A stretch of DNA of 64,000 bases from Polaribacter sp. (GTDB lineage Bacteria > Bacteroidota > Bacteroidia > Flavobacteriales > Flavobacteriaceae). Position numbers and translations under genes: made by a program. The notes beneath the pieces were generated by a model. The model was given only the letters and a program-made list of their open reading frames with translations. It ran no database searches and had not been told where the DNA came from. The number at the start of each line of letters is the position of its first letter. Position 1 is the first letter of the stretch. Shown piece after piece: positions 47,357 to 49,937 of the stretch. Location: contig JAQXEU010000003.1 of assembly GCA_029250685.1 (NCBI GenBank), forward strand, positions 1 through 64,000, written 5' to 3'.

Positions 47357-48226
47357 ATGATAAACGAACCAGCAATTATTCCAGAAAAAGTAAAAAAACC
47401 AAAATGGTTGCGTGTAAAATTACCTGTTGGTAAAAAATATACAGAGCTTCGTAGTTTGGTTGATAAGTATAAATTAAATACAATTTGTACAAGTGGAAGT
47501 TGCCCAAATATGGGAGAATGTTGGGGAGAAGGAACTGCTACGTTTATGATTCTAGGAAACATTTGCACACGTTCTTGCGGGTTCTGTGGTGTAAAAACCG
47601 GAAGACCAGAAACGGTTGAATGGGACGAGCCAGAAAAAGTTGCACGTTCAATTAAATTGATGAGCATTAAACATGCTGTTTTAACCTCTGTTGATAGAGA
47701 CGATTTAAAAGATGGTGGTTCTATTATTTGGGCAGAAACTGTAAATGCTGTTCGTAGAGCAAACCCAAAGACAACGTTGGAAACTTTAATTCCTGATTTT
47801 CAGGGAAACGAAAAACAAATTGACAGAATTATTAAAGTTGCTCCAGAAGTAGTTTCTCATAATATGGAAACTGTTAAAAGATTAACTAGAGAAGTTAGAA
47901 TTCAAGCTAAATACGAAAGAAGTTTAGGTGTCTTGAAATACTTAAAAGAAAACGGAATGCGAACTAAATCTGGAATTATGTTAGGTTTAGGAGAAAAGGA
48001 AGAAGAAGTAATTCAGACCATGAAAGATTTACGCAATGTTGGTTTAGATGTAATTACAATTGGACAGTATTTACAACCAAGTAAAAAACATTTACCTGTA
48101 AAAGAATTTATCACTCCAGAGCAATTTAAAAAATACGAAACTTTAGGTTTAGAAATGGGCTTTATGTATGTAGAAAGTGGCGCTTTAGTACGTTCTTCTT
48201 ACAAAGCACATAAGCACGCAAGGTAA
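47357..48226 (+). CDS. lipA: Lipoyl synthase
   Basis: A 289-residue radical SAM enzyme that inserts two sulfur atoms into protein-bound octanoyl groups, making lipoyl cofactor for enzymes such as pyruvate dehydrogenase. The auxiliary cluster ligands are in [13 protein letters not shown] and the radical SAM cluster in [23 protein letters not shown] and the C-terminal RSSYKA with the conserved Ser are family features. Length is typical. The lpd gene 9 kb away uses the cofactor. Confidence 0.97.
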
Positions 48227-48244: not shown

Positions 48245-48277
48245 AAAAGCTCACAATGTCTATTTGTGAGCTTTTTT
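48245..48277 (+). terminator. Intrinsic terminator of lipA
   Basis: The stem AAAAGCTCACAA / TTGTGAGCTTTT has a 7-base loop and a T run. It isolates lipA from the small RNA locus downstream. Confidence 0.9.
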
Positions 48278-48422: not shown

Positions 48423-48439
48423 TTGGCACGCGGTTTGCA
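48423..48439 (+). promoter_or_regulatory. Sigma-54 (-24/-12) promoter
   Basis: TTGGCACGCGGTTTGCA matches the RpoN consensus (YTGGCACG-N4-TTGCW) at every key base. The invariant GG and GC doublets have the exact 12-base spacing. The start site is predicted at about 48450. Upstream, AAATGT at 48374-48379 and its inverse ACATTT at 48387-48392 (plus another AAATGT at 48363) could be an activator site (inference). No coding gene lies downstream in this direction; a terminator follows within 100 bases. Confidence 0.8.
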
Positions 48440-48449
48440 AATAGTGAAA

Positions 48450-48540
48450 TGAAAACAAATGTGAGAGACTTGTTTTCATTGTGTAAATTATTTGAATTAG
48501 TTGACAACAAAAAACCACTTCGCTTGAAGTGGTTTTTTTG
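48450..48540 (+). ncRNA. Candidate sigma-54-dependent small RNA, ~91 nt
   Basis: From the predicted start the transcript opens with a hairpin AATGAAAACAA / TTGTTTTCATT (48448-48458 with 48470-48480, 11 bp, loop ATGTGAGAGAC). An AU-rich unpaired stretch of about 30 nt follows. It ends in an intrinsic terminator AAAACCACTTC / GAAGTGGTTTT (48511-48536, GCTT loop) plus U tract. Promoter, structured 5' end, single-stranded middle and terminator form a complete sRNA unit. The overlapping 38-codon ORF from ATG 48449 runs through the terminator and is probably not real. Target unknown. Confidence 0.65.
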
Positions 48541-48561
48541 TTTTTATAAACTTAGTAATTA

Positions 48562-49920
48562 TTAGATTGCTTTAATAATATCATGCTTCGTAATAATACT
48601 GTGGCTTCCGTTTTCTAAATCTACTAATACAGCTTGATTTTCTTTTGTAATCAATTTAGAAACCTCTACAATAGAAGCAGACATTTTAACTACAGGATAT
48701 TTAGCGCCCATAACTTCTTTTATAGGTTTGTCTTGAATATCTGTATTTTGCAAATAACTTCTTAACAAATCTGTTTCATCCAAAGAACCAACAAATCCAT
48801 TTATATCTTCAACCGGAATTTGAGAAATTTTAAATTCTCTCATTCTTTCAATTGCGTGTGCAACCAATTCCTCAGTTTTCACAGCAACTAATGGTTTATC
48901 TGAATGATTTTTAATTAAATCTGCAGCAGTTGTAATTTTTTCTTCTAAAAAACCACGTTCACGCATCCATTCGTCATTAAACATTTTTCCAACATATCTA
49001 CTTCCGTGATCGTGAAATAACACAACAACAACATCCTCTTTTGTGAAATGCTCTTTTAGTTGCAATAATCCTTTAATTGCAGAACCCGCAGAATTTCCAA
49101 CAAAGATACCTTCTTCTTTAGCTATCTTTCTTGTATAAACTGCAGCGTCTTTATCTGTTACTTTGGTAAAACCATCAATCACGGAAAAGTCAACATTTTT
49201 TGGTAAAATATCTTCTCCAATTCCTTCTGTGATATAAGGGTAAATTTCATTCTCATCAAAAATTCCAGTTTCATGGTATTTTTTAAATACTGAACCATAC
49301 GTATCTATTCCCCAAACTTTAATATTAGGGTTTTGTTCTTTTAAATATTTAGCTGTTCCAGAAATCGTTCCACCAGTTCCTACACCAACAATAAAATGTG
49401 TGATTTTTCCATCAGTTTGTTCCCAAATCTCAGGTCCAGTTTGCTCATAATGCGTTAAAGCATTTGATGGATTATCATATTGATTTACATACCAAGAATT
49501 TGGAGTTTCTGCCCCTAACCTTTTAGAAACCGAATAATAAGAACGAGGATCATCTGGCTCTACGTTTGTTGGACAAACAACAACTTCTGCTCCAACTGCA
49601 CGTAAAATGTCCATTTTTTCTTTAGATTGTTTATCTGAAATCACAAAAATACATTTGTATCCTTTTATAATTGCAGCTAAAGCTAATCCCATTCCTGTAT
49701 TCCCAGAAGTTCCTTCGATAATTGTTCCACCAGGTTTTAATCTTCCATCTGCTTCTGCATCTTCAACCATCTTTAACGCCATTCTATCCTTAATAGAATT
49801 TCCTGGATTAAACGTTTCTACTTTTGCCAATACTAAAGCATCAACTTCTTTGGTTACAGAATTTAACTTTACTAAAGGTGTATTACCAATAGTTTCTAAT
49901 ATATTTTTTGCGTATTTCAT
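48562..49920 (-). CDS. PLP-dependent cystathionine beta-synthase / cysteine synthase with CBS domains
   Basis: A 452-residue fold-type II PLP enzyme. The PLP lysine is in PGNSIKDRMAL, the substrate loop in EGTSGNTGMGLA, and the phosphate-binding loop in GVGTGGTISGTA. From about residue 335 to the end a pair of CBS domains (VAHAIERMREFKISQIPV, SIITKHDIIKAI) is present, as in eukaryotic-type cystathionine beta-synthase. It condenses serine or O-acetylserine with a thiol. The ATG at 49920 is taken; the track Met two codons upstream is equally possible. Confidence 0.92.
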   Translation of the reverse strand: MKYAKNILETIGNTPLVKLNSVTKEVDALVLAKVETFNPGNSIKDRMALKMVEDAEADGRLKPGGTIIEGTSGNTGMGLALAAIIKGYKCIFVISDKQSKEKMDILRAVGAEVVVCPTNVEPDDPRSYYSVSKRLGAETPNSWYVNQYDNPSNALTHYEQTGPEIWEQTDGKITHFIVGVGTGGTISGTAKYLKEQNPNIKVWGIDTYGSVFKKYHETGIFDENEIYPYITEGIGEDILPKNVDFSVIDGFTKVTDKDAAVYTRKIAKEEGIFVGNSAGSAIKGLLQLKEHFTKEDVVVVLFHDHGSRYVGKMFNDEWMRERGFLEEKITTAADLIKNHSDKPLVAVKTEELVAHAIERMREFKISQIPVEDINGFVGSLDETDLLRSYLQNTDIQDKPIKEVMGAKYPVVKMSASIVEVSKLITKENQAVLVDLENGSHSIITKHDIIKAI

Positions 49921-49937
49921 TGTCAAATTTTAAAGTG

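Follow-up and report, generated by a model that had tools for sequence, protein, structure and literature searches.

A putative sigma-54-controlled small RNA beside lipA in Flavobacteriaceae, predicted to pair with the starts of tandem susC mRNAs

What does the gap between lipA (lipoyl synthase; 47357 to 48226, + strand) and the convergent gene for a cysteine synthase with CBS domains (48562 to 49926, - strand) encode in a Polaribacter genome, and what might its product regulate? We analyzed this locus in its window, the whole 64,000-nt stretch of DNA under study, and in related genomes, and conclude from sequence that it very probably encodes a trans-acting antisense sRNA of ~90 nt, gated by sigma-54 and an activator, that would block SusC translation. 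The predicted transcript spans 48450 to 48540 on the + strand, with its start placed from the -12 element, its end from the terminator, and a fold z score of -3.8. As the initial annotation had noted, no protein gene comes next on this strand, the following gene lying on the opposite one. It had also described lipA as isolated by its own terminator; a terminator-like hairpin is present at 48245 to 48275 (+ strand; GCTCACAATGTCTATTTGTGAGCTTTTTT), identified as an inverted repeat and scored on the minus strand by the terminator scan, and it separates lipA from the sRNA gene.

The promoter, TTGGCACGCGGTTTGC, is an exact sigma-54 -24/-12 site at 48423 to 48438 on the + strand (-24 GG at 48425-48426, -12 GC at 48437-48438); the exact spacing reported earlier is confirmed, and the site begins at 48423, not 48424. 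The motif TTGGCAC-N5-TTGC has a single match across the window, where shuffles predict 0.03. Counting from the C at -12 (48438) gives a predicted +1 at 48450, the start that had already been proposed, inside the first bases of a perfect 11-bp hairpin. Among 55 homologues with enough upstream sequence, duplicates removed, 52 carry TGGCA or TGGTA, N6, and TTG with identical spacing. In the other three, TAnnTTTG, the flavobacterial sigmaA -7 box (PMC9723704), replaces the sigma-54 site; in 26 homologues such a box overlaps the -24 box, where dual use of sigmaA and sigma-54 is possible judging by the motifs.

These boxes lend some weight to a reading in which a vegetative (sigmaA) promoter is the main source of the RNA, with sigma-54 playing no part. 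We consider this improbable, given that the window copy has no TAnnTTTG overlap, that both sigma-54 elements stand at exact spacing in nearly all homologues, and that the source genome encodes RpoN and two sigma-54 activators. We infer that the RNA is transcribed and that its transcription depends on sigma-54. Several Tenacibaculum copies have a sigmaA-like box that overlaps or replaces the sigma-54 site. The three copies with a replaced site (L026 in G008, L059 in Tenacibaculum soleae, and L093 in T. adriaticum) keep the core of the RNA and, on the aligned sequences, represent a natural promoter swap; in L093, it seems that losing a single G from the -24 GG was enough.

The predicted RNA consists of a 5' hairpin, a single-stranded core, and a terminator. 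The hairpin (48448 to 48480, + strand) is a perfect 11-bp inverted repeat, as first described, with arms at 48448-48458 and 48470-48480 and a loop at 48459-48469. The strong intrinsic terminator was likewise borne out: it lies at 48509 to 48546 (+ strand), has a 13-bp stem with a T-run (48509-48538), and was recognized both as an inverted repeat and by the terminator scan. The sRNA folds at -28.1 kcal/mol (z = -3.8), a value equaled by none of 200 shuffles. The unpaired AU-rich stretch between the helices is present, but the emphasis needs correcting: this stretch is conserved more strongly than any other part of the RNA and probably forms the seed. Alignment of 48 transcripts, target sites, and duplex energies together delimit a near-invariant core of 29 nt as the predicted seed (48477 to 48505, + strand).

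More than 50 distinct homologues were found in Polaribacter, Tenacibaculum, and a few other Flavobacteriaceae genera, mostly beside lipA. A search of 59 relatives gave matches in most genomes placed in the same genus, and the exact 27-nt core pattern recovered 43 stretches from named genomes, mainly of Tenacibaculum and Polaribacter. Nearly all copies with enough flank adjoin lipA, and most have the cysteine synthase/CBS gene beside them. Most genomes carry one copy, including the source genome, where the second match of the search is the susC target. Two copies, each with its own sigma-54 site, occur in T. holothuriorum (L072, in tandem) and in Polaribacter septentrionalilitoris (L076 and L084).

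The helices change in a compensatory way. Across 17 distinct hairpins anchored on the 11-nt loop, standard pairs make up 100% of positions compared with 77% after shuffling, a figure that leans towards structure because the hairpins were chosen and anchored by hand; the double changes, unaffected by that choice, number 27 cells altered on both sides compared with 7.7 when shuffled. Slid controls were 45 to 66% paired. In other homologues the hairpin is shorter or shifted. Double changes are numerous in the terminator stem too, and the core, CATTGTGTAAATTATTTGAATTAGTTGAT, is nearly invariant in the 48 aligned transcripts. RNAalifold pairs 28-49 inside the core never vary and were left out of the covariation evidence. 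Changeable helices around a frozen single strand form the pattern expected of a base-pairing sRNA. The covariance check that the initial annotation had called for finds promoter, hairpin, and terminator kept in Polaribacter, Tenacibaculum, and several other Flavobacteriaceae genera, with a hairpin that covaries.

Searching the whole window gave no Rfam family at gathering score, an outcome that favors the initial annotation. BTnc231 (RF04180) reached 35.4 bits against a gathering score of 80.4, a likeness that rests mainly on the terminator; membership in BTnc231, RNAI, or leader families was rejected, since all of these matches draw on the terminator and fall far under the gathering scores. 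With the threshold relaxed, BTnc231 and others appeared weakly, and neither FopS nor GibS was listed, in an Rfam copy not confirmed to hold FopS. The Rfam library includes a Qrr model, and it gave no match at gathering or relaxed threshold. We found no published description of this RNA in the open-access literature, to which the search was confined, subscription papers being outside its scope.

The core points to a target. Its 29 nt are the reverse complement of the 5' untranslated region (UTR) together with the start codon in one or two susC genes arranged in tandem, and the 3' arm of the 5' hairpin also complements the start codon region. In the search of relatives, the core was matched antisense to ATGAAAACAAAGTTTAATGGAATTTTAACG, which reads MKTKFNGILT, the start of SusC-type proteins; these MKTKFNG-type TonB-dependent receptors have Pfam carboxypeptidase-regulatory-like and TonB Plug domains. 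Allowing up to 3 mismatches, the susC-start pattern occurs once or twice in each of 18 genomes out of 36, and the reversed control gives no site; all of the sites are MKTKF or MRTKF SusC starts. Duplexes between the sRNA and susC of the same genome range from -29 to -43.5 kcal/mol in 16 of the 17 genomes tested (-43.5 kcal/mol in the source genome); the exception within the genus is the weak duplex of G018, at -17.9 kcal/mol. For a background, we scored both strands of 400 kb of the closed genome of a relative (G020), a sample that deliberately included the target locus, and examined the rest of that genome by pattern alone. In the 400 kb, scores are -41.7 and -35.5 for the two susC starts and -25.1 for the next-best window, with a mean of -11.1 (standard deviation, 2.7). 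The label "orphan" is therefore wrong, given the conserved place beside lipA and the conserved, specific predicted target at the tandem susC mRNA starts.

The target locus holds two tandem susCD pairs (gene names from reading translations), flanked on one side by translation genes (L3-like, EF-G, S7-like) and an outer-membrane assembly-like gene and on the other by an rRNA methyltransferase-like gene. No carbohydrate-degrading gene was found among the translations read in 20 kb, so the locus is probably not a polysaccharide locus, and the target susC genes apparently lie outside a polysaccharide utilization locus (PUL). A conserved TTTAAGAYTTTTG block immediately 5' of the pairing region suggests a short susC 5' UTR, which the sRNA would cover; the median 5' UTR in Flavobacterium psychrophilum is 24 nt (PMC9723704). 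In the tandem susCD pairs (L271:6193-15802), susC leaders and signal sequences hardly differ between species at the DNA level, and pairing with the sRNA offers a ready explanation for this nucleotide-level freezing of the susC start. The core's complement being conserved in susC as well, the invariance of the core partly reflects a frozen target. A TTTTGGCA-N6-TTG match 55 nt upstream of the source-genome target susC start (L242:1501-1517) is probably due to chance, although it may alternatively be a sigma-54 promoter for susC.

In the mechanism that we propose, a sigma-54 activator ATPase would be switched on and the RNA made from ~48450, its 5' end probably shielded by the hairpin. The 3' arm of the hairpin and the single-stranded core would then base-pair with the one or two tandem susC mRNAs over their short 5' UTRs and start codons, hiding the start codons and blocking translation initiation, with mRNA decay probably following. 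FopS sRNAs of Bacteroides thetaiotaomicron repress SusC translation through start-codon pairing, so such a mechanism works in the phylum (PMC11697453).

Complementarity alone does not give the sign of regulation, and RbpB in Bacteroides illustrates that such control can be relieved (PMC11697453). The sRNA might accordingly pair with susC mRNA to activate or stabilize it, or the abundant susC mRNA might act as a sponge that titrates the sRNA from other targets. Both are unlikely in our view, as the duplex spans the start codon and the bases just upstream, a position where FopS represses (PMC11697453), and as the susC starts stand well clear in score of every other site in the 400-kb sample. It is less probable still that a duplicated susC 5' region left the core behind as a fossil, with the RNA made and its susC match lacking function. 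A duplication or inversion could have left so nearly perfect a mirror of susC, but the complementarity has been kept in many species and in several genera, even as the sequences of hairpin and terminator turned over, and G008 shows a matched change, its core reading CATTATGT in place of CATTGTGT and its susC leader reading ATATAATG. A small-protein messenger, read from an ATG at 48449 as MKTNVRDLFSLCKLFELVD... in a 66-aa open frame overlapping the sRNA region, was rejected as highly improbable, because the ATG is missing in many homologues, differences in hairpin length put the frame out of register, third codon positions vary no more than the first two, and terminator changes are compensatory and not codon-like. 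Promoter, hairpin, core, terminator, synteny, and complementarity are evident in the sequences, by which measure the antisense sRNA is real, conserved, and equipped with a specific predicted target.

Distant relatives extend the picture within the family. A covariance model run on 400 family genomes gave four convincing matches with sigma-54 promoters (G373, G178, G328, and G240). A pattern of a sigma-54 site, 20 to 50 nt, and TGTTTTCATT matched 15 of the 400 genomes and none in the reversed control, adding G412, G238, G312, and G083 as homologues; five of the 15 (G313, G125, G404, G419, and G442) were set aside as chance matches, since they do not show the anatomy. Of these eight distant homologues, six adjoin lipA, which neither search used and which is strong evidence of common descent. 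Among the weak covariance-model matches (~37 to 51 bits in the 400 genomes), only L138, L139, L150, and L158 were accepted; most lack a sigma-54 site and resemble terminators with chance or 3'-UTR similarity. In G240, MKTK/MRTK susC starts score -38 and -40 compared with -12 to -15 for other susC starts; such starts also pair better than others in G178, as do two of the three in G328, and the advantage is small in G373. The pattern-found genomes agree, with -46.7 in G083 compared with -18 to -30 for other susC starts of the same genome and better pairing in G312, G412, and G238, part of this advantage being built in since TGTTTTCAT was required. In genus g200, a search of genes for the full sRNA complement gave no match and susC pairing is partial, making targeting of susC there less certain. 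Terminator-proximal stretches in other Flavobacteriaceae (L157, L159, L144, and L145), some just after a gene end and exemplified by TTTTCATTTTA...TTTGAGTTAG, resemble start-codon complements and have no sigma-54 site; they are possibly 3'-UTR-derived relatives or chance.

Which signal might operate the switch? Both sigma-54 activators of the source genome are genuine. One (L127:1081-2244) has receiver and AAA domains and no recognized DNA-binding domain, and its gene lies between those for an MscS-like channel and a peroxiredoxin. The other (L128:808-2037) has an AAA-Fis architecture without a receiver and stands in the order miaB-activator-lptE, the last gene encoding an LptE-like lipoprotein. 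A comparable activator-LptE pair is on record for F. psychrophilum (PMC9723704). There, sigma-54 promoters drive GroESL, DnaK, Lon, HtpG, ClpB, Skp, and gliding genes, tying sigma-54 to chaperones and envelope genes (PMC9723704). The source genome has two other TTTTGGCACG sites, one preceding a lipoprotein-like gene and the other a small gene. Upstream of the sRNA promoter, a search for an activator binding site found just a weakly conserved stretch containing TGTTAA. From the F. psychrophilum regulon, the activator-LptE pair, and the site before the lipoprotein-like gene, we infer that envelope or protein-folding stress is the most plausible input. The claim of an activator-gated regulatory sRNA of flavobacteria finds support in conservation, covariation, and the Rfam search.

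Qrr, GlmY/GlmZ, and CrcZ are sigma-54-dependent sRNAs that have a -24/-12 promoter and need an activator ATPase. The flavobacterial RNA shares with this class an exactly spaced -24/-12 site directly upstream and a genome encoding RpoN and an activator ATPase, whereas those RNAs belong to another phylum and are unrelated in sequence, structure, and targets. Nearer at hand is Rfp36 of F. psychrophilum, from the same family, an RNA gene with a mapped start (position 840245) and the one RNA under a sigma-54 (SM4) promoter in the part of PMC9723704 that we draw on, which names no target for it; Rfp36 may be an orthologue.

FopS sRNAs resemble the flavobacterial RNA in being short, with an intrinsic terminator and a single-stranded seed pairing at a susC-type start codon (predicted here). 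FopS, however, comprises 14 paralogues with vegetative sigmaABfr promoters and a seed at the single-stranded 5' end, has several, mostly PUL, targets, and responds to bile salts (PMC11697453). The flavobacterial sRNA is mostly single-copy, has a sigma-54 promoter and a 5' hairpin before the seed, keeps a fixed lipA adjacency, and is predicted to target a single tandem susC locus that apparently belongs to no PUL; it thus has the susC-start-complementary seed of FopS without the vegetative promoter and many paralogues. No significant sequence relation to FopS was found, and the shared seed complementarity is a likeness in working, not evidence of descent.

RybB and MicA of enterobacteria depend on Hfq. 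Like them, the flavobacterial RNA would be an alternative-sigma sRNA aimed at major outer-membrane protein mRNAs (PMC1804206), with pairing near the mRNA start predicted from sequence. RybB and MicA are driven by sigmaE, in another phylum and with unrelated sequences; here the promoter is of sigma-54 type and the stress link is conjectural. The RNA differs from FopS and from sigmaE-RybB/MicA in promoter, copy number, and target. Post-transcriptional control in Bacteroidota has so far been known mainly from gut Bacteroides; in marine flavobacteria and Tenacibaculum, this sRNA is predicted to link sigma-54 to a SusC-type transporter, through a pairing predicted exactly to the base pair. We consider it an even proposition that sigma-54 and the sRNA form an outer-membrane brake of Flavobacteriaceae, in which an ATPase activated by envelope or folding stress would switch on the RNA, which would stop synthesis of a main, non-PUL SusC. 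If so, Bacteroidota would have a counterpart to the sigmaE-RybB/MicA arm that is assembled from unrelated components.
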